A stretch of DNA of 64,000 nt, taken from the IMG/VR virus record IMGVR_UViG_3300044710_000053, positions 1 through 64,000 of that record. The stretch is one strand, 5' to 3'. The stretch's first letter is position 1, and every line of letters begins with the position of its first letter. A program made the translations under genes and the position numbers. The notes below the pieces were generated by a model. The model was given only the letters and a program-made list of their open reading frames with translations, had not been told where the DNA came from and ran no database searches. The DNA comes from a virus. Shown here in pieces: positions 25,899 to 50,533 of this stretch.

Positions 25899-26552
25899 CT
25901 ACCCTTTTGTGGGCTGCGTGGATTCGAGAACGGCCATCAATTGACGGCCGATGAATTGCGTATACGCCGGCGGAATCGCTTGGGCAAGCTGGGCCCGGCT
26001 AGTCATCCAGTCGATTCCCATAGCGGCTTCTGCCTCTTGGCGGTTGAAATTATGGCCAGCCACACACACGAATGGATGCCGGCGGGAGTACCCGCGGTGC
26101 GATCCGGTTGATTCCTCATGCCGACGGTGTTCTGGCGTCATAACCAAAACGCTGCACTCGAATAGGCGGTGCCGATAGACTTTCAGGCCGAACATCGTCC
26201 CGCAAAGCATCGTTGGCGTCTTGAGCGGCGCGCCGATTACATTCTCGATTGCATAGGGCTTGTTCAATTCGACTAGCCGGGCCCGAACTGTTTTCACGAG
26301 GTCAGGATGGTTTGCGCCACGATGCGCGTGAACTTTACTGGCGACTGAATATCTCTGACACGGGGGCGATGCGTGGATCGCGTCAAACTCATGGCCATGC
26401 TCGGCAAGGAACTCCAACGCATCCGCCTGGTGGAACTCGAACGGATACCGCGGCTGCGGTCGGTTATCGACGCCGACAACCTCAAAGCCTGCGCGATGGT
26501 AGCCGACAGCGGACCCGCCAGCGCCGGAAAATAGGTCGAGCAGTCGTTTCAT
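25899..26552 (-). CDS. DNA cytosine-5 methyltransferase, 217 aa
   Basis: Adds a methyl group to C5 of cytosine using SAM. Motif I is LLDLFSGAGGSAVG (4-17), motif IV PPC (63-65) with catalytic C65, motif VI ENV (103-105), motif VIII YRHRLFE (about 126-132) and motif X near the end (QLAQAIPPAYTQFIG). At 217 residues it is shorter than host enzymes because the target-recognition region between VIII and X is small, as in many phage orphan methyltransferases. No restriction enzyme lies beside it, so it is probably an anti-restriction or regulatory methylase. Confidence 0.9.
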   Translation of the reverse strand: MKRLLDLFSGAGGSAVGYHRAGFEVVGVDNRPQPRYPFEFHQADALEFLAEHGHEFDAIHASPPCQRYSVASKVHAHRGANHPDLVKTVRARLVELNKPYAIENVIGAPLKTPTMLCGTMFGLKVYRHRLFECSVLVMTPEHRRHEESTGSHRGYSRRHPFVCVAGHNFNRQEAEAAMGIDWMTSRAQLAQAIPPAYTQFIGRQLMAVLESTQPTKG

Positions 26553-27390: not shown

Positions 27391-27589
27391 GGTCGCCCTC
27401 CTTCATTAAGAACGCTTGGGAAATGAATCCGTGGACCGCTGCGAAGTGAATCAGCGCCGCGACGACTTCCGGTTCAACGAAAATCTCGTTGCTCGGATCG
27501 GTTGGCAATCCGTTCTCGGTAGTCAAACGGATCGCATAGCCGATGTTTTCGACATACACGCTATCGCCTAGATATTCTTTATTGCTCAC
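27362..27589 (-). CDS. hypothetical protein, 75 aa
   Basis: MSNKEYLGDSVYVENIGYAIRLTT is a pattern found in small phage proteins (YLGDSVYVE...). EVVAALIHFAAVHGF follows. Overlaps the next gene by 29 nt. Soluble alpha/beta; function unknown. Confidence 0.65.
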   Translation of the reverse strand: MSNKEYLGDSVYVENIGYAIRLTTENGLPTDPSNEIFVEPEVVAALIHFAAVHGFISQAFLMKEGDHAVERQGGR

Positions 27590-27792
27590 GTTGTCGGTTC
27601 CTCTTCTGGCGGATTCAACGCGCCGACCAACGCAGTCAGCGCCTCGCGGGATTTCTTGGCAGCGTCAAAGATCGCCTCTTCGCCGTGTTGCTCTAGCAAC
27701 TCGCACAGGTCGAGCGCGTCGAGCAGCATCTTCGTTTCGCGCTTGTCGAGCTTGATCGTCGGTTGCTCGCCCGCTTTGGCTGAAATCCTCAC
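27586..27792 (-). CDS. hypothetical helical protein, 68 aa
   Basis: MRISAKAGEQPTIKLDKRETKMLLDALDLCELLEQ is a helical sequence with regular hydrophobic spacing. It is the first gene downstream of the small RNA gene at 27811-27912. Its stop overlaps the next ATG. No family recognised. Confidence 0.6.
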   Translation of the reverse strand: MRISAKAGEQPTIKLDKRETKMLLDALDLCELLEQHGEEAIFDAAKKSREALTALVGALNPPEEEPTT

Positions 27793-27810: not shown

Positions 27811-27912
27811 AAAAAGCTCGCGCCGCCTGCGACTCTTTGAGGGCCGGACAGCGCCAGAAGAATCGCGCGGCGGCGCGAGTGGATCGTCCTGGGAATCGGC
27901 TGTCCGGCCAAC
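27811..27912 (-). ncRNA. putative pseudoknot sRNA, copy 1 (family of four)
   Basis: Transcribed leftward from the promoter at 27919-27947. Two interleaved stems: 11 bp between 27899-27909 and 27842-27852, and 11 bp between 27869-27879 and 27817-27827, both perfect. The order is 5' arm 1, 5' arm 2, 3' arm 1, 3' arm 2, an H-type pseudoknot with loops of 19, 16 and 14 nt. The second stem is followed by C and U5 (27815-27811), so it is also the terminator. The 5' start is estimated at about 27912. Confidence 0.65.
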
Positions 27913-27918
27913 GCGAGG

Positions 27919-27947
27919 ATCTTATCCTCCGGCCTAATCCGTGTCAA
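27919..27947 (-). promoter_or_regulatory. sigma70-type promoter of sRNA copy 1
   Basis: Minus strand -35 TTGACA (27947-27942, perfect), 17-bp spacer, -10 TAAGAT (27924-27919). Nine nt separate the -10 from the first stem. Same geometry at the three other copies. Confidence 0.75.
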
Positions 27948-28060
27948 CAAGTTTTTTCTGCACTCTCTGGGCGCGGGGTGTCGGCTCCAAGAGCGCGAAG
28001 CGGTCAATTGCCGCGCTGGTACGTTGGTTCCGGCAGTCCCATCGCATCATCCTCGGTCGT

Positions 28061-28282
28061 CTACTTGGGGCGGTACGTTCCGTTCTTGATAGCCGACATC
28101 AAGAGGAACAGTCCTTCATCATCGTCCGGCACGTTCTTGAATCCGCGCTTGCGGAGTTCAGATCGAATCGTCGCGTAGGCCGCTTTATGATGCACCGCGA
28201 TTTCATCCGGTGTCATTTCAATGCCCTTGTCCGCAAGATGCTTGAGCGCGGCTTGCGTGTGTTTCTTTCCCAGAGGCTTCAT
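28061..28282 (-). CDS. hypothetical protein, 73 aa
   Basis: Start at 28282 (MKPLGKKHTQAALKHLADKG) follows the upstream stop by 2 nt; the frame to 28333 lacks an RBS. IEMTPDEIAVHHKAAYATIRSELRKRGF looks like a helical, HTH-like domain. The region 27948-28060 downstream holds nothing else I could identify apart from a possible 12-codon frame. Possibly DNA-binding. Confidence 0.6.
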   Translation of the reverse strand: MKPLGKKHTQAALKHLADKGIEMTPDEIAVHHKAAYATIRSELRKRGFKNVPDDDEGLFLLMSAIKNGTYRPK

Positions 28283-28284
28283 AG

Positions 28285-28551
28285 TCAAATACCCGCGCCA
28301 GCGATAAATTCCCTGAGCATCCACAAATAGCACTCATCGAACGTGGCGACTTCTCCGCGCTCGTGTCGTTCGTAGCATCGCTCGCAAACCGCAATGCCGC
28401 CGCCACCAGATTCCCAAAGTGAATCGGGAAACTCGTTGCTCACAACGTCTCCATTGAAAACGGGAACGCTCCAACGATGCTCTGTCCAGCAATCGCACAA
28501 ATGGCAGCGCACCTCGTGAGACTGCATCCTGATTTCCAGAATTTCGGCCAT
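28285..28551 (-). CDS. zinc-binding protein, 88 aa
   Basis: ATG at 28551 with AAAGGATG upstream. Cys pairs CHLC (about 16-19) and CERC (about 58-61) frame a beta-rich middle, forming a likely zinc ribbon. A Cys near the C-terminus may be a fifth ligand. Function unknown. Confidence 0.65.
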   Translation of the reverse strand: MAEILEIRMQSHEVRCHLCDCWTEHRWSVPVFNGDVVSNEFPDSLWESGGGGIAVCERCYERHERGEVATFDECYLWMLREFIAGAGI

Positions 28552-28679
28552 CGCATCATCCTTTCTGGCCAGTCGCGCCGGCGCTGGTATCACTTGGCTC
28601 TCGGTCGTCTACTCTTCTGCATGGCCTCAAACGAGCGCTGCCACGTCAGGTTCTTCCGGCGGCCCAATCGTCAAGTCGT

Positions 28680-29273
28680 TCAGGTTTTTCTTTTGCCGAA
28701 CTCAAATCGCGCCGATCGTGCCGTCGCAAGGTGTTCCTCGCGGAGCGGTCCTTCAATCGCGTCCAAGCACTTCATGGCCTCAAACGTCCCCAACATGCCC
28801 GGCGTCATAAATTCTCGGTTGCCGTACCAATTCGAGCAGAGACACAAATCGCCGTTCAAGTCGAACGCCCAAAAACTTTCTTCCCATTCCGATTCACCGC
28901 CGCTGCTGTCGGTGAGGTCATCGCAAAAGACCGTCAGCCGACTGGCGATATACTTGTCGTCGAGCAATTCTGGAATCTCCGGCAATCCGTGCATGATCGC
29001 TACAGGCTTTCCGGTCGCTTCCTTCAATTCTCGGCAGAGTTGCAATTCGCGCGGCAGCGGCCGAGTTCCCTTGATTTCCAACCAGCAATCAAGCCGCGAC
29101 AACCAAAAGTCAGGCAGATATTTCCCGGAAGGAAGTTCGTAGCCTTCGACTTCGTACTCCCACGGCTCACGGAACGAGTCGAAGAAAATCGCCACGCGGG
29201 CCTCAAGCCGTGAGCGAAATTTGTATCCGCGGTAGGTCGTGTCGATCGCTCGCGGTTCACGGTCTACTGCCAT
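28680..29273 (-). CDS. PD-(D/E)XK-like nuclease-family protein, 197 aa
   Basis: YRGYKFRSRLEARVAIFFDSF, then YEVEGYELPSGKYLPDFWL and WLEIKG fit the PD-(D/E)XK endonuclease fold: the Glu in RSRLEAR, the Asp in LPDFW and the E-I-K triad form the metal site. Proteins of this type in phages resolve or degrade DNA. The C-terminal half (WAFDLNGDLCLCSNWYGN) is a separate domain without a known match. No partner helicase is adjacent. Confidence 0.75.
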   Translation of the reverse strand: MAVDREPRAIDTTYRGYKFRSRLEARVAIFFDSFREPWEYEVEGYELPSGKYLPDFWLSRLDCWLEIKGTRPLPRELQLCRELKEATGKPVAIMHGLPEIPELLDDKYIASRLTVFCDDLTDSSGGESEWEESFWAFDLNGDLCLCSNWYGNREFMTPGMLGTFEAMKCLDAIEGPLREEHLATARSARFEFGKRKT

Positions 29274-29283
29274 CGTTGAGTCC

Positions 29284-29523
29284 TCAAAAGGGAACGCCAG
29301 AATCGCCCGAGAGGTCCACAGTCTCTAAGATTTCCAGTAGTCGCTGCCGGCACATCCCCGGTCCAATCGGTCGCGCAGCAAGTTGCTTCGCGTAAATCTC
29401 TCGCTCGAAAGGATGTAATTCGGAAGCCAGCAAGCTGAGTACCATTGGCCCAAGCGAATCGAGTTCCGGCCCAAGTTCTCGTTCGCGTTCGATCGCCTTC
29501 ACTCTGTCGAGTTGCCAGCCCAT
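29284..29523 (-). CDS. hypothetical helical protein, 79 aa
   Basis: The ATG at 29523 overlaps the helicase loader stop (TAATG). Helical with charged and hydrophobic periodicity (DRVKAIERERELGPELDSL, LEILETVDLS). Directly follows the replication genes. Could be a small replication accessory protein; no motif. Confidence 0.6.
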   Translation of the reverse strand: MGWQLDRVKAIERERELGPELDSLGPMVLSLLASELHPFEREIYAKQLAARPIGPGMCRQRLLEILETVDLSGDSGVPF

Positions 29524-30326
29524 TAGCAGTTCACTCGTTTTACAGGTCGCCGATGACTCGGCCAGTTGCAAACGATTTTCAACGCGCCGTCGCACATGCG
29601 GTCCCACGTAGCCGAGCCCATCCGTTCTTTGGCTTCTTGGTCGCTGGCCACATTCACAGTCACAATCGTCGGAAGGCAGCCGGCTGACCTATCATCCAAG
29701 AGCCGGTAGAGCATCGTGGCCTGAAATGGAGTCAGCGGCCCAAACGGCGGGAGCGGGTCCGACACGACCAGAACAGTCGGCCGTGCCTTCGCTCCGATTT
29801 GCGTCTCTTCACTCAGGCCGCGTTCCTTCCCGATTTCGTCGCGCACCGAGCCAAACCAATCCTGGCAGTTCATCCATTCGACTCGCGTTCCGTGCTGCCG
29901 CAAGAGCGCCCGCAGAATCGAAAAAGCCAGATGATCCTTGCCTGTCCCGCATGGGCCGCAGAATAGAACCCCGCTAGACTCTGGCGTGAATGAGTCGATG
30001 TATTCCCGAACCGCGGCGACGGCATTCTGTTGTCCCGGCAACGGAGCGTCGAAGGTTTCCAGGGAGTAATCCTCGAATCGTTTTCCAGCGGATGTAATCA
30101 GCTTGCCCCAAATGACTGACTTGGCAGCGGCAATCTTGGATCGCTCGGCTTCCGCGTGCCTTTGGGCGCGGGCGGCGTCTGCCGCCTGCTCCTCCGGAGT
30201 AGGCGATTCCAGCCGCCTGCTCATTTCCGCCAGCCGCTCTCGGAACGGGTCATTCGGAGAAGTCGAGCTTTGCGGTGGGGTCGTAGGATTGGCCTGGTCC
30301 CTGTCGGTGTCCTGCTGGTTTTCCAT
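29523..30326 (-). CDS. DnaC-like helicase loader / AAA+ ATPase, 267 aa
   Basis: Loads the replicative helicase at the origin. Walker A GPCGTGK (124-130) and Walker B VLVVSDP (about 190) are clear; an acidic/Pro-rich N-terminal part of about 65 residues precedes the ATPase core, and a C-terminal basic tail ends PSHRRPVKRV. Overlaps the initiator gene by 77 nt in another frame, as helicase-loader and initiator genes often do. Located with RecT and nuclease genes as the replication module. Confidence 0.85.
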   Translation of the reverse strand: MENQQDTDRDQANPTTPPQSSTSPNDPFRERLAEMSRRLESPTPEEQAADAARAQRHAEAERSKIAAAKSVIWGKLITSAGKRFEDYSLETFDAPLPGQQNAVAAVREYIDSFTPESSGVLFCGPCGTGKDHLAFSILRALLRQHGTRVEWMNCQDWFGSVRDEIGKERGLSEETQIGAKARPTVLVVSDPLPPFGPLTPFQATMLYRLLDDRSAGCLPTIVTVNVASDQEAKERMGSATWDRMCDGALKIVCNWPSHRRPVKRVNC

Positions 30327-31038
30327 TTGAACCTCCTTTATCGTTTTGGGCTCGATCCATCCACCGGAACAAAAAACTCATCATGCCGCGGGCCGTCTTG
30401 CGTTTGCCAGGGTTCGCCTCTGTCCAGGCCAACGCCTTGCGGCATTGCGCGAGAACGTCGAGCGCCGGGAAGCCTCCGGCGAGCTTGTCGATGTGCTCTT
30501 GGCGAAGCTCCCATGTCGGAGCTGGTCCGGCTGTCGCAAAGGTCAGGATCGGCGGCTTCGAGTCCGCGGCAAGCGGCTCGGAGCTACCTTCCAATCCCTT
30601 CCCTACGCTACGCTTCTCTACGCTTGGAAACCCTACGCTAGTAGTCGCGTCTGGGGTCGTATTCTTGAAACTCTTATCCATAGTCTTAGTCTTAGTCTTA
30701 GTCTTTGACGTAAACACTTCAACCTTATCGCGTAACAGCTTTGCCTTGCACCACGATGGCATGTGCTCCGACCAGTCGTGAATAATCAACCTCGCAGCTT
30801 TGTGTTCGTCCAAAAAGCCCGCCAAGACTAGGTGTGACACAAAAAACTTGGGATCGAGCGCCCAGCAGCACGCCTTTGCGATGGTTCCGTCGCTGTGCCG
30901 CCCTATGTCCCCTCGTGGCGAATAGCGCGATGTGAACCGCCAAAGAAGCTCAAGGGTTCCCAACGTGGCCGGAAGGTCCAGATTCAGCCGGCTCATCAAG
31001 TCGAGCGTCTTAGGGTGCTCTGGGCAGTCGATTTTCAC
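30250..31038 (-). CDS. phage replication initiator (O/DnaD-like), 262 aa
   Basis: Starts at GTG at 31038. The N-terminal region (SRLNLDLPATLGTLELLWRF, IGRHSDGTIAKACCW) looks like a winged-helix replication-initiation fold. A Lys/Thr-rich hinge (TSKTKTKTKTMDKS) separates it from a C-terminal domain ending in a Gly/Pro/Gln-rich tail. The overlap with the helicase loader is typical of initiator-loader pairs. No repeats that would define an origin were found in the coding sequence. Confidence 0.7.
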   Translation of the reverse strand: MKIDCPEHPKTLDLMSRLNLDLPATLGTLELLWRFTSRYSPRGDIGRHSDGTIAKACCWALDPKFFVSHLVLAGFLDEHKAARLIIHDWSEHMPSWCKAKLLRDKVEVFTSKTKTKTKTMDKSFKNTTPDATTSVGFPSVEKRSVGKGLEGSSEPLAADSKPPILTFATAGPAPTWELRQEHIDKLAGGFPALDVLAQCRKALAWTEANPGKRKTARGMMSFLFRWMDRAQNDKGGSNGKPAGHRQGPGQSYDPTAKLDFSE

Positions 31039-31106
31039 GCCCGCGGACTCCGAGCCGGCCCGTCCCTGCGGCTCCGTACTGCCGCACGTCCTTGGGCCAA
31101 CCGTCT

Positions 31107-31203
31107 AAAAAGCACCGCACACCCGGCTTAGCGAATGATCGGTCAGAACCAGAGCGCTAAACCGGGGGCGGCGTGGATTGCATGGGAAGTTCTGACCGAA
31201 CGT
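31107..31203 (-). ncRNA. putative pseudoknot sRNA, copy 2
   Basis: Stem 1 is 10 bp perfect: 31189-31198 with 31140-31149. Stem 2 is 31155-31166 with 31122-31133 (11 bp and one mismatch). Their order is interleaved as in copy 1, with loops of 22, 5 and 6 nt. A shared box CGCCGC (31173-31168) can extend the second stem with GCGGTG (31118-31113). U5 at 31111-31107 ends the RNA. The base pairs differ from copies 1, 3 and 4 but stay complementary. Confidence 0.65.
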
Positions 31204-31208
31204 GGCTG

Positions 31209-31237
31209 AATCTACAAAAGCCCACGGCGCGAGTCAA
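31209..31237 (-). promoter_or_regulatory. sigma70-type promoter of sRNA copy 2
   Basis: -35 TTGACT (31237-31232), 17-bp spacer, -10 TAGATT (31214-31209); 10 nt to the first stem. Confidence 0.65.
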
Positions 31238-31297
31238 GAGAAGTTCGGCCATCGTCGGATTCCTTCTCCGGCCTCGTCGCCGGGCATCCGTGGATCG

Positions 31298-31392
31298 AAA
31301 AAGCACCGCACACCGCCGGCTACAAATATCCGTGAGGGGGAGAGTGCAGTCGGCGGGGCGGCGTGGATTGCTGGTAATTCCCTCACGGAACG
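31298..31392 (-). ncRNA. putative pseudoknot sRNA, copy 3
   Basis: Stem 1 is 9 bp perfect: 31380-31388 with 31330-31338. Stem 2 is 7 bp with one G-U: 31348-31354 with 31315-31321. Same interleaved order, loops of 25, 9 and 8 nt. It has the CGCCGC / GCGGTG pair (31363-31358, 31309-31304) and ends at U5 (31302-31298). Loop 1 shares ATCCACGCCGCC with copy 2. It lies in tandem directly upstream of copy 2. Confidence 0.65.
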
Positions 31393-31397
31393 CGGTT

Positions 31398-31426
31398 ACT
31401 CTAGCGACTGGCTCAAGAGATTGCAA
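31398..31426 (-). promoter_or_regulatory. sigma70-type promoter of sRNA copy 3
   Basis: -35 TTGCAA (31426-31421), 17-bp spacer, -10 TAGAGT (31403-31398); 9 nt to the first stem. Confidence 0.6.
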
Positions 31427-31429
31427 GAG

Positions 31430-31711
31430 AAAAAATGGCCGTCTCTCCGACCTGTCGCGTCGTTCCGGCTAAGCTGACGTTGCCGCATAGTTCCCCGGAC
31501 GGAATCTCGCGCTAGTGCCTGCGGTCGCGCGAGCGCTGACAAGAGCTTCGGATTTCTCCTACACGGTCTCGCAGGGCCAGTTATTTTGTTGCCGGTCTTT
31601 CCCGGCTGCCAGCGGATAGGATTCGCCTTGCGGCTACTTAGAGGCCAAGCCTCCTAATCCTCGATGTTTCGCACCGCCTCGAACACTACTCAAGTAGAGG
31701 TTCATGGGCTA
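31430..31711. other. noncoding stretch between sRNA copy 3 and the split gene
   Basis: No frame with an RBS or a plausible protein was found. It holds small hairpins, for example CTCGCGC (31506-31512) with GCGCGAG (31527-31533), and an AGGC/GCCT plus TTAG/CTAA stem with one bulged base (31638-31657). None is followed by a U-run. Confidence 0.4.
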
Positions 31712-31851
31712 TCAGCGGCTCCCGTAGTAGCATTGGCCGTCATCTTCCTCTTGCGGCTCATCGACTCCCTCTCCCCAATCATCGGCCCAGTGCGTTTGGC
31801 ACTGGGCGCACCCGCAGTCGTCTTGGCCGTCAACATGGTCACATTCCGGGC

Positions 31852-31859
31852 ATTGCTTG
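31852..31859. repeat. left 8-bp target-site duplication
   Basis: ATTGCTTG at 31852-31859 is identical to 34101-34108 on the other side of the element, the length typical of IS1595-family insertions. Confidence 0.9.
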
Positions 31860-31931
31860 GGTAATTATATACTTGCCTCATCACGCCACTAAACTATTTT
31901 GGAATTCTTGCCTGATTTGCGGGCTAGGTAC

Positions 31932-31959
31932 TTGACTCATCCGGCGAAGGGTGTAAAAT
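31932..31959 (+). promoter_or_regulatory. promoter driving the IS genes
   Basis: TTGACT (31932-31937), 16-bp spacer, TAAAAT (31954-31959), about 45 nt before the first IS gene. Confidence 0.6.
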
Positions 31960-32003
31960 AGTGGTAGACGCGGGGCAATCACGAACGCGAAAGGACGTGG
32001 GCC

Positions 32004-32351
32004 ATGATGCAGGAAACTCAATCTGTCACGATGCTTGGTAAGTTCAGTCATCTGCCGCCATTTAGCAAAGACGGCAAGTTGCAGTTGTGCAGCGATTGCG
32101 GACACTATGTTCGGCGCACGATCAATGTCTGTCCGTTTTGTCATCCGCGAACCTGCCCCGCAATCTTCGAGTTGTGCGATGGCGAAGCCATTGGAATCGT
32201 GCGCGTCTATTGCTCTCAAGAGTGTCGAGAGAAGGACGACAAGGTGTACCGCGAGGATGTTTCTTCGCCAACCGACGTGCAACTTTGTCACGGCGAAAGC
32301 CCTATTCCAGCCCAAGCCCATTGCTGGAATTGCGACAAACCACTCGACTAA
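32004..32351 (+). CDS. IS passenger: Cys-rich zinc protein, 115 aa
   Basis: Many Cys in pairs (CSDC, CPFC, CSQEC, CWNC) and a TCPAIFELC segment suggest two or more zinc sites. AAAGGAC lies 10 nt before the ATG. First gene of the IS. Such passengers accompany IS1595 transposases; their role is unknown. Confidence 0.7.
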   Translation: MMQETQSVTMLGKFSHLPPFSKDGKLQLCSDCGHYVRRTINVCPFCHPRTCPAIFELCDGEAIGIVRVYCSQECREKDDKVYREDVSSPTDVQLCHGESPIPAQAHCWNCDKPLD

Positions 32352-32357
32352 GAAGCA

Positions 32358-32654
32358 ATGACCATGAACGCCATCACGAAACAGCGCCGAGCAGTAATTG
32401 CGAAGATTCTTGCCGAGAATCCGCTGTTTCCACCCGTTGCACTTCGGAGGCCCAAGCATCTCATCGGGGTAGACGGTAAGAACCACGGATTTTTCGTTGT
32501 GAACAACCCGAAGATGATTCTTGATCGAAAAGCCTACCGGCAAATTGTGGCGGAGGCGGTCGAATTGAAACTCGACCGCAGACTGTTCATCTTCGGGCGC
32601 ATCGCTACATACATCGGACCAGGCATTGAATTTATGCAGTTGGGAGCCGGATAG
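32358..32654 (+). CDS. IS passenger: hypothetical protein, 98 aa
   Basis: Basic and mixed alpha/beta, MTMNAITKQRRAVIAKI..., with a second Met two codons in as an alternative start. It ends MQLGAG, 3 nt before the transposase. Only found here as part of the element; no motif. Confidence 0.6.
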   Translation: MTMNAITKQRRAVIAKILAENPLFPPVALRRPKHLIGVDGKNHGFFVVNNPKMILDRKAYRQIVAEAVELKLDRRLFIFGRIATYIGPGIEFMQLGAG

Positions 32655-32657
32655 AAC

Positions 32658-33614
32658 ATGACAAACGACACCCCCGAAACCCTGTTGGAAGCCGTCAAGT
32701 ATTTCTCCGATCCAAAGGTATGCTTCACCCACATGCTGGCCGTGAAGTGGCCCGATGGGAAAGTCTGCTGCCCAAAGTGCGGCAGCCAGTCGGTCGGCAT
32801 CATCGCCAGTCGGTCGATGCTGCAATGCAAGGTGAAAACCTGCCGCAAGCAATTCAGCGTGAAGGTGGACACGATTTTTGAAGATAGCCCGCTGGGGCTG
32901 GACAAGTGGTTTGTGGCCGTCTGGTGCATCGCCAACGCCAAGAATGGAATTAGCTCTTGCGAGTTGGCTCGCGCGATTGGCGTGACTCAGAAAACGGCGT
33001 GGTTTCTGTTGCACCGCGTTCGGCTGGCGATGGCGACGCGCTCGTTCCACAAGTTGGACGGGGAGGTTGAAGTCGATGAGACTTTCATCGGCGGCAAATC
33101 GGCCAACATGCACAAGAGCAAACGCGAGCGGCTGATTACCGGGCGCGGCACCGTCGGGAAGGCAATCGTCCAGGGGCTCTTGCAACGCGGCGGAGAGGCT
33201 CGCATGGAGGTTGTCGGCAGCACGGACGACATTACGCTGCAAAGCACCGTGCGGGCCAACGTCGAACCCGGTGCGAACGTCTACACGGATGCTCTGCCGT
33301 CCTACGCTGGCCTGTGTCTGAGCTACTTCCATGCGTTCGTTGACCACCTGACAAAGTACGTCGAGGGGCGCGTTCACACGAACGGCTTGGAGAACTTTTT
33401 TGGCCTGTTCAAGAGGTGCCTCAAGGGAACCTACGTGTCGATGGCACCTTACCACCTGCGCCGCTACTTGGACGAGCAAACCTACCGCTTCAACAATCGC
33501 GGTACGACCGACCGCAGCCGCTTCCTGGGCGTTCTCTCGGCGGTTGTCGGACGCCGAATCACCTACCGCGTTCTGACTGCCCAGAACGATGCGGGCTTTA
33601 TGGGGATCAAGTGA
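32658..33614 (+). CDS. tnp: IS1595-family transposase (ISXO2-like DDE), 318 aa
   Basis: N-terminal zinc ribbon CPKC...CKVKTC (about 38-64) followed by the ISXO2-type catalytic domain. Acidic residues fall in EVEVDETFIGG (first D), VYTDALPSY (second D), and HTNGLENFFG (the His/Asn-Glu cluster). Length and layout match intact IS1595 transposases; there is no frameshift. Catalyses cut-and-paste or copy transposition of the element. Confidence 0.9.
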   Translation: MTNDTPETLLEAVKYFSDPKVCFTHMLAVKWPDGKVCCPKCGSQSVGIIASRSMLQCKVKTCRKQFSVKVDTIFEDSPLGLDKWFVAVWCIANAKNGISSCELARAIGVTQKTAWFLLHRVRLAMATRSFHKLDGEVEVDETFIGGKSANMHKSKRERLITGRGTVGKAIVQGLLQRGGEARMEVVGSTDDITLQSTVRANVEPGANVYTDALPSYAGLCLSYFHAFVDHLTKYVEGRVHTNGLENFFGLFKRCLKGTYVSMAPYHLRRYLDEQTYRFNNRGTTDRSRFLGVLSAVVGRRITYRVLTAQNDAGFMGIK

Positions 33615-33615
33615 G

Positions 33616-33921
33616 ATGGAAATTGATGGGCTTCGAAAAGCATACAACCAACGAGATGACGTGGCTTTCGAGAAGTTAGTCGCGGAAATAGTGGAGTTGA
33701 GTGTGCAGCATGACAAAGTGCGTGATGAAAACTGGAAACTATTCGACAGCCTCACATTTGCATTGGGGGAAGTCCAAGAACTTGTGGACACGATTGGCTC
33801 ATTCTCCTGCCGCTTCTGCAAAAGTAACTTCACGCGGAGCTTGAAAGATAAGATTCGGCACAAGGCAGATTGCCCATATCGCCGGGCTAAGGAACTGCTC
33901 AAAAAGAAAATCAAGGAATGA
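33616..33921 (+). CDS. IS passenger: zinc finger-helix protein, 101 aa
   Basis: Starts MEIDGLRKAYNQRDD at 33616, two bases after the transposase stop. A helical coiled segment is followed by CRFC...H-x-x-DC (about 65-83), a putative C2HC zinc finger, then a Lys-rich helix ending KKKIKE. A longer start at 33589 overlaps the transposase. Confidence 0.65.
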   Translation: MEIDGLRKAYNQRDDVAFEKLVAEIVELSVQHDKVRDENWKLFDSLTFALGEVQELVDTIGSFSCRFCKSNFTRSLKDKIRHKADCPYRRAKELLKKKIKE

Positions 33922-33931
33922 GGGCCGGTCA

Positions 33932-34063
33932 ATGACCACGAAGCACGAACGGATTGGCGAGTTTCGCAAGCTGCTGGGCAAGCTGGTGCGCGTGCCGAAA
34001 GCGGAAGTCGCCCGCGAGCAAGAGCGGATCGACCGAAAACGGGCAGGCAAGCGCAAAAAGTAG
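33932..34063 (+). CDS. IS passenger: short basic protein, 43 aa
   Basis: MTTKHERIGEFRKLLGKLVRVPKAE and a Lys/Arg-rich tail. Small proteins of this kind (E-F-x-x-L..L..VP..E) often sit next to IS1595-type transposases in bacterial genomes as I know them; role unknown. Lies 37 nt inside the right end. Confidence 0.65.
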   Translation: MTTKHERIGEFRKLLGKLVRVPKAEVAREQERIDRKRAGKRKK

Positions 34064-34100
34064 GCGTCACGGGGTTTGATGAGTGAAGTATATAATTACC

Positions 34101-34108
34101 ATTGCTTG
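34101..34108. repeat. right 8-bp target-site duplication
   Basis: ATTGCTTG, identical to 31852-31859. Confidence 0.9.
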
Positions 34109-34142
34109 CCCTCTTCCATTTCCGAAAAACAGTTTGGGCAAT

Positions 34143-34523
34143 TCATGGTCCGCACCTCACGCGCCCACACGTCGGGCATTTGCCATCGTCCCTGGGAGCC
34201 GGAAACGGCGGCGGTTCCATCGCGCCACCCATCAAGGGCATCCACCACTGCGGCCTCCATGCCAATACCCTTCCGCAATCGGGGCCGGTCTGGCTCAGCC
34301 AAACACTTCCGGTCCACAGTGCTGCGCCACCGGCAACAATCACAATACGATGCGGCTCGGGCATCTTGTCGGACGTTCGGATCGCTTCGATCAGAAGTGG
34401 TTCGGTTCCAATAGTCCGTCTTGGCAACGGTGGCTTTGGGCATGGACCGCTATAGCCGTGAAACTTGAACATCTCTTCGCCATCGGGCATCGGCTCGCCG
34501 CAGAGTTCGCAAGTCGCTGTCAT
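34143..34523 (-). CDS. zinc-ribbon-containing protein, 126 aa
   Basis: CELCGEP at the N-terminus and CPTCGRVRC at the C-terminus bracket a Trp/Pro-rich middle (WWMPLMGGAMEPPPFP), suggesting one zinc ribbon assembled from both ends. RBS AAGGA precedes the ATG at 34523. Coupled by ATGA to the split gene downstream. Not recognised. Confidence 0.7.
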   Translation of the reverse strand: MTATCELCGEPMPDGEEMFKFHGYSGPCPKPPLPRRTIGTEPLLIEAIRTSDKMPEPHRIVIVAGGAALWTGSVWLSQTGPDCGRVLAWRPQWWMPLMGGAMEPPPFPAPRDDGKCPTCGRVRCGP

Positions 34524-34630
34524 TCGTAATCCTTCAGGTAGGCATCTTCTCTGGGATTGAATCGCTGGCGCCTCACCAGCGCCATCAATTCATCCCAGAA
34601 AGCGTTGTCGGCCTTCGTCGTCGCGGTCAA
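34520..34630 (-). CDS. possible small protein, 36 aa
   Basis: A frame ending NPREDAYLKDYE overlaps the next start by ATGA, which supports translation. Its start is unclear: the first candidates in frame are TTG at 34630, or TTG at 34705, which falls inside the sRNA. AAAGGA at 34650 is too far from 34630. Treat as tentative. Confidence 0.35.
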   Translation of the reverse strand: MTATTKADNAFWDELMALVRRQRFNPREDAYLKDYE

Positions 34631-34657
34631 GATGAGAGTCCATTGAAATCCTTTCGG

Positions 34658-34751
34658 AAAAAGCACCGCCGCCGTTGCGACTAATCCGGAAAGGAAAGAG
34701 CGCAAGCGGCAGGCGGGCTGTAATCCAGTGAGTAGTCCTTTCCGGGAACGC
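34658..34751 (-). ncRNA. putative pseudoknot sRNA, copy 4
   Basis: Stem 1 is 10 bp perfect: 34736-34745 with 34686-34695. Stem 2 is 34701-34710 with 34671-34679 (9 bp, one bulge). Loops are 25, 5 and 6 nt. It ends in GCGGTGC followed by U5 (34662-34658), matching copies 2 and 3. Loop 1 differs most from the other copies. The 5' end is inferred from the promoter. Confidence 0.65.
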
Positions 34752-34756
34752 GAGCC

Positions 34757-34785
34757 ATTAAAACCTCAGTCGCTCGGCTTTGCAA
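34757..34785 (-). promoter_or_regulatory. sigma70-type promoter of sRNA copy 4
   Basis: -35 TTGCAA (34785-34780), 17-bp spacer, -10 TTTAAT (34762-34757), 11 nt to the first stem. It overlaps the last codons of the gene at 34766. Confidence 0.65.
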
Positions 34786-34967: not shown

Positions 34968-35339
34968 CTAAGTCGCTCCGATCTTCGCCGCACTCTCGAC
35001 CACAGCGCCGCTCTGGCTGGGCAATTCTACCTGCGCACGTAGGGCGATGATCTTGGCACGCCAGAGGGCGGTAAGTTGCCTTGGGCGCAAACCATAAAAC
35101 CACGGTTCTTGAGGCACGCAGCAAAATCCATGCTCCCAACGCCACTGCCTTGACATTTCTGGATTGGCGGCGCAGAAGTCGCAATAGTCCCCAAACCGTT
35201 GACCGAGTATACAGTCACAACTTGATGCCAAATCTAGCGTCTCTAGCCGCATCATCTCGACCCATCCCGGATAGTTCGCATCGAGCCACGCGGCTCCCAG
35301 ATTGACTGCTTCTGACAGAAATTTCTCAAACTCGCTCAT
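34968..35339 (-). CDS. Cys-containing hypothetical protein, 123 aa
   Basis: MSEFEKFLSEAVNLGAAW, then CDCILGQ, CDFC and CC groups (about 41-75) that could form a zinc site, and a basic helical tail. ATGA coupling with the gene upstream. Not recognised. Confidence 0.65.
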   Translation of the reverse strand: MSEFEKFLSEAVNLGAAWLDANYPGWVEMMRLETLDLASSCDCILGQRFGDYCDFCAANPEMSRQWRWEHGFCCVPQEPWFYGLRPRQLTALWRAKIIALRAQVELPSQSGAVVESAAKIGAT

Positions 35340-36082
35340 TGGTTTTCCTTTCTGCGGTTTGTTTCCTTGCCCACTGCAATCATTCGCTCGACCAACTTGA
35401 CGGCAGATTGCTGTATCTTTTCCGTTGTCGGTTTAATGGCATCCCAAGCGGCAGCCCTAGCGGCATCCCTAGCGGCATCCCTAGCGGCAGCCCTAGCGGC
35501 ATCCCAAGCGGCAGCCCAAGCGGCAGCCCTAGCGGCATCCCTAGCGGCAGCCCAAGCGGCAGCCCTAGCGGCATCCCAAGCGGCAGCCCAAGCGGCAGCC
35601 CTAGCGGCATCCCAAGCGGCAGCCCAAGCGGCATCCCAAGCGGCAGCCCTAGCGGCAGAAATTTTTTCTAGCGCCGCATCTAGGTCGGCCCACTGTTGGA
35701 TCGGCTTGAGCGATTCGAGCGCCTCGGCGTGAGGCACAAGCGCCGGAGTCAGTCGCAGAAAAGCCGGCGTCCATTCGCGCACGAGCCAATCTACGCACAG
35801 CATGACGCGAGCCAATTCGACGGCCTTAGTCGAGCGCGTGCCGACGATCTTCTTGACCAGCGGCTTGAGCAGCCGCGTCCGCGATTCGTCATCCGGTAGA
35901 TCATCATTCCAGCGAATCAAGAACGCCGTGATGATTGGGCACGCGCAAGCTGGATGATCGCTGTGCGGCTCGCCGGCGACGTAGGCGACCGCCTCCATCA
36001 CGCACTTGCCGTTGTCTGGCGCGTGCTTGCCGTGGCCGATCTTGAATCCGCGCGGAAGAGGCTTGAGCTTCACTGCTGGCAT
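35336..36082 (-). CDS. phage protein with Ala/Trp/Asp tandem repeats, 248 aa
   Basis: Start 36082 (MPAVKLKPLPRGFKIGHGK) has a GGAAAGG RBS. The first 155 residues are a normal folded domain with LRWTQ-type strands and PACACPIITAF. From about 157 to 225 the sequence is a run of short repeats (AAWDAA, AARDAA) that form an Ala-rich helix with Trp and Asp at regular steps. Proteins with such (A/R/W)DAA repeats occur in many phages; role unknown. The repeats are encoded by 12-nt DNA units and may vary in number. Confidence 0.75.
   Translation of the reverse strand: MPAVKLKPLPRGFKIGHGKHAPDNGKCVMEAVAYVAGEPHSDHPACACPIITAFLIRWNDDLPDDESRTRLLKPLVKKIVGTRSTKAVELARVMLCVDWLVREWTPAFLRLTPALVPHAEALESLKPIQQWADLDAALEKISAARAAAWDAAWAAAWDAARAAAWAAAWDAARAAAWAAARDAARAAAWAAAWDAARAAARDAARDAARAAAWDAIKPTTEKIQQSAVKLVERMIAVGKETNRRKENQ
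35440..35660. repeat. 12-nt tandem repeat tract inside the Ala/Trp/Asp gene
   Basis: Alternating CTAGCGGCATCC and CAAGCGGCAGCC units run for about 220 bp with few other changes. This is typical of slipped-strand expansion and contraction, so copy number probably differs between isolates. Confidence 0.8.
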
Positions 36083-36252
36083 TGGTTTTCCTTTCCTAGT
36101 AGTAGTGGTTGCGTCCATCTTAGCGCCCGGCCCCGCTCATCGACAATCGCCGCTCGGCGTCCGCGGCGAATCAAATCTCGGTAGAACTTGAGCGCTTCCG
36201 AGAACGTCGCGGCGGGATAGGTGCCGGCGGTGGTGCGGATGCAATAGGTCAC
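36070..36252 (-). CDS. small protein, 60 aa
   Basis: MTYCIRTTAGTYPAATFSEAL, then FYRDLIRRGRRAAIVDERGRALRW: alpha/beta opening and basic core. Overlaps the next gene by 13 nt and shares its RBS region. Not recognised. Confidence 0.65.
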   Translation of the reverse strand: MTYCIRTTAGTYPAATFSEALKFYRDLIRRGRRAAIVDERGRALRWTQPLLLGKENQCQQ

Positions 36253-36611
36253 AAGCTTCCTGCCGCCTTGCGTCTGCGGACCTCGCTGATGCTGACGCCT
36301 AGACTTGTAGCCAATTGCCGAACTGTCGGACCTCTCTCTGGCTGATTCGCGCTATCGGGATGCACCGTGCGACTCTTGATCTGCGATGAATGGTACTGAC
36401 GAAACGCAGCGCATTTACCGCCGCTATAGGCTTCGCAGCCGTTGCAAATGTTGCCGCCCGTTTCGTGCTGTAGCGCATTGAACAGCAGCGAGAATCTTCC
36501 CGCAGAGAGCAAAACGTCGGACTCAACATCCGCGCCGGTTTGTATACATCCAGCGCGGTGAAGCTCGACGAAAGAGCCTGTTAGTCGTCCGGTAGGCACT
36601 GAATCTCTCAC
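36249..36611 (-). CDS. HTH DNA-binding protein, 120 aa
   Basis: The C-terminal part, GPTVRQLATSLGVSISEVRRRKAAGSL, is a clear helix-turn-helix. The N-terminal part carries NICNGCEAYSGGKC, three Cys that may bind zinc. Starts at GTG; the RBS is poor, so GTG at 36599 is an alternative. Could regulate the early operon. Confidence 0.65.
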   Translation of the reverse strand: MRDSVPTGRLTGSFVELHRAGCIQTGADVESDVLLSAGRFSLLFNALQHETGGNICNGCEAYSGGKCAAFRQYHSSQIKSRTVHPDSANQPERGPTVRQLATSLGVSISEVRRRKAAGSL

Positions 36612-44025: not shown

Positions 44026-44760
44026 AGCCTTACTGCCAAACGAAAAGAATTTTTTCGGAATTTTTCCGTTGCCATGCACCCAAGCAATACAACCAGCAGG
44101 ACTCCATGCCATGCACCGAAAAATCAGCGAAAATTTGCATCAAAAGAACCGCGATCCGTTAGGGCCGACTCGCAAGCAGTGGGCCAGCATGGGTCAGACG
44201 CATCAATGGTCGTTGATGTATCAATGGGTGTCAGAAAGCTGACAGTGCTACCCACCCAAAAGGGTGGCAAGCAGAGACCTAGCATTTGCACTTCACGCCG
44301 TAACATGTTGCTTGCTAAGCACTTGCTGCTTGGGACGTGCCGTTGGTTCTTGGCACGTCAAGGTCGGCTCAGGCCACCCGGCAGGCCCCCCTTTCGCGGC
44401 TTGATGTAGTCAACATGCTACTCCCCGACTTTTACCGACCCCTGGATTTAGGCAATTCTGCCTCAACAGTCTCCCCCTAGCGAATCCCCTTGCGGTCTGG
44501 TTCGGCTATTGCCTTACTCGCCGCTGTAGGGGCTTTGGCCGATGGCCCTGATATTTCGCAGGATCAGCCCAGGACACGCTCGCGGCAGTAGTGTGGAGTG
44601 GCCGGCTGCCGGTCGTAGCGTTCGCTGTTTTGATGCCAGACATTTCCCCTCGGGGTCGGTCGCTGGCAAAGTCGTCCGATTTGCCAGTGGGGGCTATGTG
44701 CTGTCGTAGGCCACAGAGAGGAACCGTTTCCCGCCTCACGGGAAGGTTGGGCCTGAGAGT

Positions 44761-44826
44761 GTCAGGTCTCAAGCCGTCGATCTCGGGAAGGGCCGGCTCT
44801 ACAGCCAGAGCCCCCCGAGACCTGAC
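44761..44826. repeat. 10-bp perfect inverted repeat enclosing a hairpin
   Basis: GTCAGGTCTC (44761-44770) is complementary to GAGACCTGAC (44817-44826); inside, GGCTCT (44795-44800) pairs with AGAGCC (44807-44812). An adjacent -10-like TATGAT on the minus strand (44838-44833) has no good -35 at 16-18 bp. Could be an RNA element or a protein site. Confidence 0.5.
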
Positions 44827-44847
44827 GATTCCATCATACCGCGACGG

Positions 44848-45159
44848 TCAATGGTCAATCGCGATGATCGTGCCGTCTGGTGCATTGCGGATGGCTTCCA
44901 TTAGCCGTTCGCGCTGCCCGGCGTCCAGTTTGAGCATAGTCACTGGCGGAAGATCGGTGATAATCACCCGGTTTCCTACCCGCGTTACAACGCCTTCGCA
45001 CTCCATCCAGAACTGTGGCTGTGGTCCTGGCTGGTAGACACTTCGGCAGAGCACGCGGCAGTCGATAGACTCGACCTTGAGTTCTTCTGTTCCCGGCCCG
45101 TGATCGACGCTGGCAACGAGCGGCGCGTCGGCGTGTGCGTTGAAGTAGAAGCGGAGCAT
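44848..45159 (-). CDS. hypothetical protein, 103 aa
   Basis: MLRFYFNAHADAPLVASVDHGPG, then RVLCRSVYQPG and VTRVGNRVIITDLPPVTML: an all-beta sequence of a small sandwich type. Faces the late module; only gene on the minus strand right of 44 kb except the small one at 59.4 kb. Not recognised. Confidence 0.7.
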   Translation of the reverse strand: MLRFYFNAHADAPLVASVDHGPGTEELKVESIDCRVLCRSVYQPGPQPQFWMECEGVVTRVGNRVIITDLPPVTMLKLDAGQRERLMEAIRNAPDGTIIAIDH

Positions 45160-48369: not shown

Positions 48370-48873
48370 ATGGCCCCGGTCACCAGAAAATGCCGCGGCA
48401 CCTGCCGCCGCCAACTGTTGCAGACGGAAGAGTATTTTCCGCGCGACGGTGCGGAGTGGTCGGACTACTGCCACCAATGCCTACGATTGGAGCGTTTAGA
48501 GCAAGAGAACGTCCGGCTGCTGACCGAGCGGCAGCGGTCTGTGGAACAAGGCTTGGCCAAGATCGCCGATGGGAGTTTGGGAGCGCCGGCGCTGGCGGAA
48601 ACTGCGGAGCTGCTGACCAACGCCTTCGGGGGCGTCAAGGAATACGCGCTGGAAGTCCGACGGCAGTACCGCAACTCGGAAAAGGGTTCCTACGGCCGCA
48701 CGCGGATTTTGGAGTTGGTGGCCCGCGTGATTACGGAGAACTCGAAACAAGGCGGCGCGAAACGGCCATTGGAGGCCATGACGGAACAAGAGCTTGAGCA
48801 GGAGAAGGAAATCCGCAAGAAGCGGATTCTCACGGACCTGCGGATCGTCGCGAAGGAAAACCGTGCCAGTTGA
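48370..48873 (+). CDS. terminase small subunit-like protein, 167 aa
   Basis: Helical: KCRGTCRRQLL with three Cys at the N-terminus, then LERLEQENVRLLTERQRSVEQGLAKI and a basic DNA-contact end. Directly precedes and overlaps the large subunit, the usual order. The CRGTC/CHQC Cys pairs may form a zinc site that helps bind pac or cos DNA. Start ATG at 48370. Confidence 0.7.
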   Translation: MAPVTRKCRGTCRRQLLQTEEYFPRDGAEWSDYCHQCLRLERLEQENVRLLTERQRSVEQGLAKIADGSLGAPALAETAELLTNAFGGVKEYALEVRRQYRNSEKGSYGRTRILELVARVITENSKQGGAKRPLEAMTEQELEQEKEIRKKRILTDLRIVAKENRAS

Positions 48874-50533
48874 TCCCAACAAGTATGAGCTGGACGCCTA
48901 CGTGTCGGTGGACATCGAACTCGATGCCCGGCGCACGGAAGCTCTACGCATCTATGAGCCGCTCCCCTGGCAAGAGGAAGTGCATCTCTGCCGCACCACG
49001 GAAGTCATGGTGAGCGGCGGAAATCGCTCTGGCAAATCGTGCTGCGGTTTCGCCGAAGATGCCCGCGCTCTGTGCGGTTGCGATCCGCACCACAAGTATC
49101 CCGAGCGGGACGGGATTTTGGTCATTGTCGCCGAGAATTGGAAAGCCATCGGCATGGTGGTCTATCCGGCGCTGTTCAAGTCGGCCTTCCAGATGATCCG
49201 CGACGAAGCAACTGGCAAGTGGCGAGCCTACCGGCCCTGGGACCCAGCCGACGTGGCCCGGAAATCAGAGAGCAAAGCTGCGCCACCTCTCATCCCCAAG
49301 CGGCTCATCGTGCCTAAGAGCATGTCGTTCCTCAACAAGAAGGAACGGCACTTATCGAGTTTCGAGATGGTCAACGGCTGGAAGTGCTTTGTGTTTTCCA
49401 GTGAGGGCGAAATCCCGATGGGTTTCCAGGCCGACCGGATTCACTTGGACGAGGACATTAAAAACCCCAAGTGGATCGAAGAGATGCAGGCTCGGCTTTC
49501 CGACCGCAAAGGCGTCATGTGGTGGACCGCCACGCCGACCCGCGACAACCACGCCATGATCGACATGGATGACCGGGCCGAGAAGCAGGCCGATGAAGTC
49601 GCCAAGGGGGAACGACAGACAGCCGATGTGGTGAAGTTCACTTTTGACTTCACCAAAAACCCGCACATCGAAGAGGACGAGAAGCGCAAGCGATTGGAAG
49701 CCTGGGCGGCCGCCGGCGAGGACGTTCTGAACCAACGGGCCTACGGCATCCTGGGTGGCTCGACGACGCTCATGTATCCGAATTTCAGCATGGCTGTGCA
49801 CGGGATGGAGCGGGACCGCTTCCCGAACCATGACGTGCCGAAGCACTGGTGCCGCTACGCCTACATCGACCCCGGCCATGCTGTGACAGCGGTGTTGTTT
49901 GCCGCCGTCCCGCCATCAGAGGAATACGATGAAGTCGGCGAAGATTTTGTGCTGCTCTACAAGGAACTGTACTTGAAGCAGTGCAACGCGGAAATTTTTG
50001 GCCGCGAGATGGCGGCGGCCTGCATGGGCGAAAGCCTGTGGGCATTTGTGCTCGATGTGCACGGTGGCCGACTGCGCGACATCGGGGCCGGCGTGAGTCT
50101 CAAGCGGCAATTCTCGGCGGCGCTCAAGCGGCACAACTGCGCGAGTCTCACCACGGGCCACAGTTTTATCGACGCCTGCGATGACATTTCGGCCCGCACC
50201 GAAGCCGCCCGGATCATGCTCCACGTCCGCCCGGCGGGGACGCCGTATCTGCGCGTGCTGGAAGGCTCGCTGCCCAACTTGATTTGGGAAGTGAAGCGAT
50301 ACACGAAGCAGGTGGATGCCAAGGGACACGTCACCGACAAACCGCGCGTCCGGGGGTTTGTCCACCAATGCCAGAACCTCGAATACATGGCCGCGCACAA
50401 CCCGAGCTACCACCAGCCGCGGCACAAGACGGTCGAGCGGAATCTGCAAACGTACATCCGCGAAAAACAGCAGCAACGTAACCAGCTTCTCGGCGTCTCC
50501 AAGAGCAGCGTGTTCCTGGGTCCGGGCGGCTAA
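48863..50533 (+). CDS. terL: terminase large subunit, 556 aa
   Basis: Packages DNA into the procapsid. GTG start at 48863 with GAAGGAA; an ATG 23 codons upstream would overlap TerS without an RBS. Walker A GGNRSGKS (52-59), Walker B IHLDED (about 191-196), and the nuclease domain with acidic residues (YIDPGHAV near 330, LDVHGGRL near 397) are present. A short C-terminal basic tail ends the protein. Full-length and intact. Confidence 0.9.
   Translation: MPVDPNKYELDAYVSVDIELDARRTEALRIYEPLPWQEEVHLCRTTEVMVSGGNRSGKSCCGFAEDARALCGCDPHHKYPERDGILVIVAENWKAIGMVVYPALFKSAFQMIRDEATGKWRAYRPWDPADVARKSESKAAPPLIPKRLIVPKSMSFLNKKERHLSSFEMVNGWKCFVFSSEGEIPMGFQADRIHLDEDIKNPKWIEEMQARLSDRKGVMWWTATPTRDNHAMIDMDDRAEKQADEVAKGERQTADVVKFTFDFTKNPHIEEDEKRKRLEAWAAAGEDVLNQRAYGILGGSTTLMYPNFSMAVHGMERDRFPNHDVPKHWCRYAYIDPGHAVTAVLFAAVPPSEEYDEVGEDFVLLYKELYLKQCNAEIFGREMAAACMGESLWAFVLDVHGGRLRDIGAGVSLKRQFSAALKRHNCASLTTGHSFIDACDDISARTEAARIMLHVRPAGTPYLRVLEGSLPNLIWEVKRYTKQVDAKGHVTDKPRVRGFVHQCQNLEYMAAHNPSYHQPRHKTVERNLQTYIREKQQQRNQLLGVSKSSVFLGPGG

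Follow-up and report, generated by a model that had tools for sequence, protein, structure and literature searches.

Diverged pseudoknotted RNAs with their own promoters and predicted terminators precede early genes in a virus of likely planctomycete host

The window analysed here, the first 64,000 nucleotides of the virus record IMGVR_UViG_3300044710_000053 and nearly the whole of that 65.8-kb record, carries on its minus strand four diverged copies of a short element that joins a promoter to an RNA pseudoknot ending in a predicted intrinsic terminator. Promoters, compensatory change in the pairing of the pseudoknot, terminator shape and placement beside genes are all evident in the sequence, and together they support the view that the copies are paralogues, each a short structured RNA with its own promoter, intrinsic terminator and covarying helices. 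We give an even chance to the proposal that the copies act as default-terminating, pseudoknotted 5' leaders (attenuators) of early or delayed-early operons of the phage.

Architecture and covariation of the four copies

The copies, numbered c1 to c4 by window position, were found on rereading the strand at the places given in a preliminary description of this DNA. Including its promoter, c1 occupies 27811..27947. Its TTGACA (27947-27942) and TAAGAT (27924-27919), which were independently recovered by a promoter-consensus scan, would start an RNA of about 27915-27811, in which an 11-bp stem 1 joins the 5' arm 27899..27909 (GGCCGGACAGC) to arm 1' at 27852-27842 (GCTGTCCGGCC), and stem 2, the terminator hairpin at 27817..27879, joins 27879-27858 to 27837-27817 through 20 pairs with one internal loop, followed by U5 at 27815-27811 (covariance-model score 40.3 bits). 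Stem 2 of c1 alone is predicted at -44.1 kcal/mol, and its 20-nt apical loop contains arm 1'. For c2 (31107..31237; RNA about 31204-31107; 98.8 bits) the promoter is TTGACT (31237-31232) with TAGATT (31214-31209), stem 1 pairs 31199-31189 with 31149-31139 (11 bp), stem 2 pairs 31173-31155 with 31133-31113 (18 bp), and U5 lies at 31111-31107. Immediately upstream is its tandem paralogue c3 (31298..31426; RNA about 31394-31298; 96.4 bits), 74% identical to it over 101 bases, with TTGCAA (31426-31421) and TAGAGT (31403-31398), stem 1 of 31389-31380 with 31338-31329 (10 bp), stem 2 of 31363-31345 with 31324-31304 (17 pairs) and U5 at 31302-31298. The last copy, c4 (34658..34785; RNA about 34752-34658; 51.9 bits), has TTGCAA (34785-34780) and TTTAAT (34762-34757), stem 1 of 34745-34736 with 34695-34686 (10 bp), stem 2 of 34718-34701 with 34679-34663 (16 pairs) and U5 at 34662-34658.

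The shared design agrees closely with what the preliminary description had reported: sigma70-type promoters with 17-bp spacing in all four copies, a stem 1 of perfect Watson-Crick pairing (10-11 pairs), a stem 2 paired with only small bulges or mismatches (16-20 pairs) and a terminal T5. Each copy has the form of an intrinsic terminator, a GC-rich hairpin with a U-run immediately after it, so that termination is predicted from sequence at all four. The leader had been put at 9-11 nt; it is indeed short, but that range was a count from the -10 box, and the corrected spacer between box and stem 1 is 8-10 nt. Stem 1 therefore begins only about 2-4 nt past the likely +1 in every copy and, since U5 stands right behind stem 2, the transcript would consist of the pseudoknot alone. 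The pseudoknots were assessed from pairing and loop lengths. Loop 1 measures 15-19 nt, loop 2 is 5 nt throughout (CTCTG, CTCTC, CTCTT and CTGGC in c1 to c4) and loop 3 is 4-5 nt; loop 2, arm 1' and loop 3 together form the apical loop of stem 2, of 20-21 nt in every copy. The constant words noted earlier are also present, namely CRCGTT, ATCCA in c1 to c3 and GCGGTGC in c2 to c4.

Such an arrangement is rarely expected by chance. A strict descriptor (stem 1 of 9 Watson-Crick pairs, a stem 2 run of at least 8, order 1-2-1'-2', then TTTTT) retrieved the four copies and no other match from the window, against a mean of 0.09 matches in 100 Markov shuffles of it, and with a promoter also required it matched once in 63.8 Mb of order-2 Markov sequence. 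The covariation claimed for the stems is borne out by c2 and c3, which differ by 11 two-sided pair changes (four in stem 1 and seven in stem 2) against one pair altered on one side, with two broken pairs, one per stem. Between these two copies 32 of 39 unpaired letters are identical (82%) but only 31 of 58 paired letters (53%). We rely on this comparison, which needs almost no alignment choices, because the four-row alignment was edited to fit the structure; assembled manually from trimmed sequences in which N served as placeholder, and so biased towards the structure, that alignment has 98.6% of stem 2 cells paired and two-sided changes in 14 of 18 pairs, with none of 500 shuffles as good and slid registers nowhere near. 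The arms of stem 1 pair with their own partners at a predicted -17.8 to -23.8 kcal/mol and with those of other copies at only -3.1 to -11.5 kcal/mol, as expected of cis-acting elements that avoid cross-talk. Compensatory change of this kind in the helices points to a structured RNA under selection.

Placement before early genes and its interpretation

Every copy lies directly upstream of, and in the same direction as, an early gene or operon, except c3, which lies upstream of c2 instead. Behind c1 is a 68-aa gene (27586..27792, minus strand) with a GTG start and the Shine-Dalgarno sequence AAAGGA, 18 nt past the U-run; it opens a tightly packed operon in which a DNA methyltransferase (25899-26552) is also encoded, and apart from that of c1 no clear minus-strand promoter lies near the operon's head. 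The gene for a replication initiation protein (phrog_9474; 30250..31038, minus strand) begins 68 nt past c2 and is followed by that of a DnaC-like helicase loader (29523-30326, minus strand). At c4 an ATG at 34643, again with AAAGGA, stands 14 nt beyond the U-run, and a 126-aa gene without family match (34143..34523, minus strand) overlaps the stop of a short open reading frame (ORF) at 34520-34630. Thus c1 and c4 each present a promoter, a terminator and a codirectional ribosome-binding site and gene with no second promoter between, and because gaps of 18 and 14 nt are too small for another promoter, the genes behind them would be transcribed only through the terminator. The regulation of nearby replication genes that the preliminary description had considered possible fits c2 and c3, but not c1 and c4.

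Relatives by sequence were not found. The copies had been thought to belong to no known family, and this type is absent from the Rfam catalogue: Rfam 15 gave nothing at the gathering threshold over the 64 kb and nothing at E<=2 over 27.5-35 kb. Two scans of IMG/VR with DNA patterns built on the conserved words returned 12 stretches, none matching the covariance model, and 23 stretches, none fitting by descriptor or inspection. The covariance-model search that had been proposed yielded one weak match in 294 Planctomycetota genomes, presumably an ordinary terminator, although few candidates were scored per genome and absence there is weak evidence; in 18 related phage records the best match had only E=0.12. 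Nothing relevant was found by blastn against phage and plasmid records, no relatives in IMG/VR were found for the replication initiator, exonuclease and resolvase-like proteins or, by alignment, for the capsid, and the element was carried by none of the flanks and records fetched for the 291 terminase relatives found.

A counterpart in architecture was nevertheless recovered when the promoter-plus-pseudoknot descriptor was run over 2.13 Mb of DNA fetched from related phages and prophages. The single further match, where about 0.03 were expected, lies in a prophage of the Planctomycetota genome G377 (contig 14, 119564-119443, minus strand; L037 9564-9443), which has TerL and capsid in common with the window virus. 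Its promoter is TTGACA and TAGTAT at 18-bp spacing, and a 9-bp stem 1 begins 6 nt past the -10 box; loop 1 is 52 nt, stem 2 is long, loops 2 and 3 measure about 3-4 nt each, and U6 ends the element. The element has no sequence in common with the four copies, and the DNA around it gave only short chance or terminator matches in other genomes; it probably, though not certainly, represents the same design at the level of architecture. A divergent tRNA-Met gene flanks it upstream and a Cpn10/GroES-like gene (region L037 8955-9395, minus strand) has its ATG 47 nt downstream, so this gene probably needs the element's promoter and passage of its terminator.

Since the genes behind c1 and c4 would be reachable only via a terminator, and given the G377 context, a promoter-proximal attenuator is the best reading of the copies; from the arrangement described we infer actual termination, regulated read-through and the kind of factor that might be involved. 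In such a leader, the sigma70-type promoter would start an RNA of about 95-105 nt, whose first 10-11 paired nucleotides (arm 1) would pair with arm 1' once this emerges from the polymerase. Arm 2' would then shut the long GC-rich hairpin 2:2', with 1' in its apical loop, U5 would follow, and by default a short stable RNA would be released. The replication operon behind c3 and c2, the operon behind c1 and the small operon behind c4 would be expressed only when polymerase reads through, either because the unpaired letters that are conserved (AWUCCA in loop 1, CUCU in loop 2 and the 5' CRCGUU) serve as a recognition site for a phage or host factor or because the polymerase was already modified upstream. 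The greater conservation of loops than of stems between c2 and c3 suggests a factor that reads the loops, and the constant geometry in all four copies (loops 2 and 3, and a stem 1 that starts no more than about 4 nt from +1) is consistent with a leader.

Several points weigh against this proposal. There is no gene belonging to c3 itself, which has only the c2 promoter behind it, and the short ORF at the best-placed ATG of c4 has 17 codons only. No alternative antiterminator fold appeared in the folds of the copies; stems 1 and 2 have no bases in common, and the element is therefore not a classical either/or attenuator, although read-through dependent on a protein or on the polymerase would not require mutually exclusive folds. 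Among the early genes, most of which are of unknown function, none was recognised as coding for an antiterminator-like protein.

Two further sites in the early region were noted. An ordinary GC-rich terminator hairpin with T5 (36697-36632, minus strand), the fifth covariance-model match in the window and rejected as a copy, directly precedes the gene 36249-36611 with no promoter between; a terminator so placed in an early operon suggests that read-through or antitermination is general in this phage, and so favours the attenuator reading. The strongest promoter-like site of the region (40431-40403, minus strand; TTGACA/17/TACAAT, 11 of 12 positions) leads straight into a small helix-turn-helix gene (40394), without a pseudoknot leader.

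The preliminary description had regarded the copies as small RNAs (sRNAs). Short structured RNAs with their own promoter and terminator they appear to be, but their position before early genes is the anatomy of a leader or attenuator. A strong rival to the attenuator, though the less likely of the two, is that they are four paralogous, free-standing pseudoknot RNAs, stable and about 100 nt long, whose targets in trans would be RNAs or proteins of phage or host; the paired 5' end and the terminator at the 3' end would protect the RNA, and the downstream genes would be transcribed by polymerase from upstream. The RNA is pseudoknot only between about +2 and the U-run and seems made to be stable, and in RydC there is precedent for a pseudoknot stabilising an sRNA (PMC4337610); c3 and c2 are complete units in tandem without an intervening gene, and loops are kept while stems drift. 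However, all copies head an operon or another copy, two of them without room for a separate downstream promoter, and there is no long unpaired seed besides loop 1, whose match to translation starts of the phage itself is equalled by 10-38% of shuffled loops. A 9-base match between an arm of c3 stem 1 and the start-codon region of 27792 was set aside as within chance by a rough count (about 0.3 expected), and pairing of loop 1 with the copy's own downstream ribosome-binding site (p = 0.03, 0.03, 0.09 and 0.75) gave too weak a signal to be relied on.

Processive antitermination like that of HK022 put, in which the nascent structured RNA stays on its polymerase and later terminators are passed, is improbable. 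A single phage with several related structured RNAs close to promoters, early operons behind them and ordinary terminators further down the early region would suit it, and put itself occurs as putL and putR with a common structure (PMC9378689). But put has two consecutive stem-loops with neither pseudoknot nor terminal U-run, and the four copies and the G377 element all end in a terminator (a GC-rich stem of 16-20 bp plus U5 or U6). It is very improbable that the copies are antitoxin RNAs of type III toxin-antitoxin systems, or decoys against a host type III toxin: the order of promoter, pseudoknotted RNA, Rho-independent terminator and toxin gene is similar (PMC5086642), but the copies contain no tandem repeats, precede different genes whose proteins lack a toxin family match, and make the terminator itself part of the pseudoknot. 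A chance arrangement of ordinary promoters and terminators, such as phage intergenic regions do contain and as the preliminary description had offered for its own refutation, is already refuted statistically by the descriptor counts and the compensation in both stems.

The virus and its likely host

The window holds an integrase (8.1-9.1 kb) and a capsid and a terminase-like protein (46.5-50.5 kb); its early genes are packed together on the minus strand between about 44 and 10 kb and include those for exonuclease VIII, RecT, the replication initiator, the DnaC-like loader, a resolvase-like protein and methyltransferases. The host is likely, though not proven, to be a planctomycete: the G377 prophage has relatives of the window's terminase (35% identity) and capsid (29%), and an IS1595-family element in the early region has its nearest relatives mainly in Planctomycetota metagenome-assembled genomes. 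The terminase (48794-50533, plus strand) has at least 291 relatives in IMG/VR by alignment search, and a few in planctomycete prophages, with none at E<=1e-5 among 50,697 deposited phage records; its group is apparently large and without members among deposited phage genomes.

The IS1595/ISXO2-family insertion (31860-34100) carries passenger ORFs; its terminal inverted repeats are GGTAATTATATACTT and its 8-bp target duplication is ATTGCTTG. It interrupts a small zinc-ribbon-like gene that starts near 34148 and ends near 31727. Because the insertion sits between them, c4 would once have been about 2.2 kb closer to c2 and c3. A 260-aa early protein (35336-36118, minus strand) contains a long low-complexity run with repeats of the AAWDAARAAAW type; its matches are all weak and are to phage families whose function is unknown. 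Between early genes, a noncoding stretch of about 620 nt (44230-44850, minus strand) folds at -270 kcal/mol (z -4.4 against shuffles) with no credible Rfam match, and is a candidate for a large structured phage RNA.

Comparison with known regulatory RNAs

To our knowledge, early gene control in planctomycete phages is essentially uncharacterised. We tentatively suggest that the copies could represent a new class of phage regulatory RNA, in which a promoter-proximal intrinsic terminator has its apical loop locked to the 5' end of the same transcript, several diverged copies gate early operons without cross-talk, and the architecture is common to distantly related planctomycete phages. If confirmed, this would be a compact multi-copy RNA switch in which knot and terminator are one object; with stems that compensate fast and loops that stay, it would provide a clean natural experiment in how pseudoknots fold during transcription, in termination and in orthogonal regulation.

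The proposed scheme follows a logic known from lambdoid phages, in which terminators precede early genes and are passed by a modified polymerase (PMC9378689), a PR'-tR' leader has been described (PMC6606751), and the agents of read-through are N, put or Q (PMC9378689, PMC6606751). The PR'-tR' late leader resembles the copies in its constitutive sigma70 promoter, its short terminated leader RNA and genes reached by read-through only. It differs in a regulator that binds DNA at the promoter (the Q-binding element, QBE) and in a sigma-dependent pause; moreover, no conserved pseudoknot is described there, and each phage has one copy. The HK022 sites putL and putR are likewise promoter-proximal structured RNAs of early operons, in more than one related copy per phage, but the two stem-loops of put act on polymerase and are non-terminating (PMC9378689), whereas the stems of the copies are interleaved and their H-type pseudoknot contains the terminator.

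In the type III antitoxin RNAs ToxI and CptI, too, an H-type pseudoknot RNA is followed by a terminator and a gene, but ToxI forms a repeat array, its terminator lies outside the pseudoknot, and its gene encodes an endoribonuclease toxin; the copies show neither tandem repeats nor such a gene behind them. Like RydC and other pseudoknotted sRNAs, the copies are short RNAs with a pseudoknot and a terminator end. RydC, however, is a single chromosomal, Hfq-bound sRNA with an exposed 5' seed, whereas here the 5' end lies inside stem 1 and four diverged copies stand before phage operons. In the preQ1, SAM-II and fluoride riboswitches a pseudoknot is tied to expression of the following gene. The copies would share this coupling to the gene behind but, unlike those riboswitches, have no conserved ligand-binding core and no Rfam match, and both of their stems vary freely. 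By these descriptions the four copies are set apart from put, PR'-tR', the type III antitoxins and RydC, none of which fits as their family.

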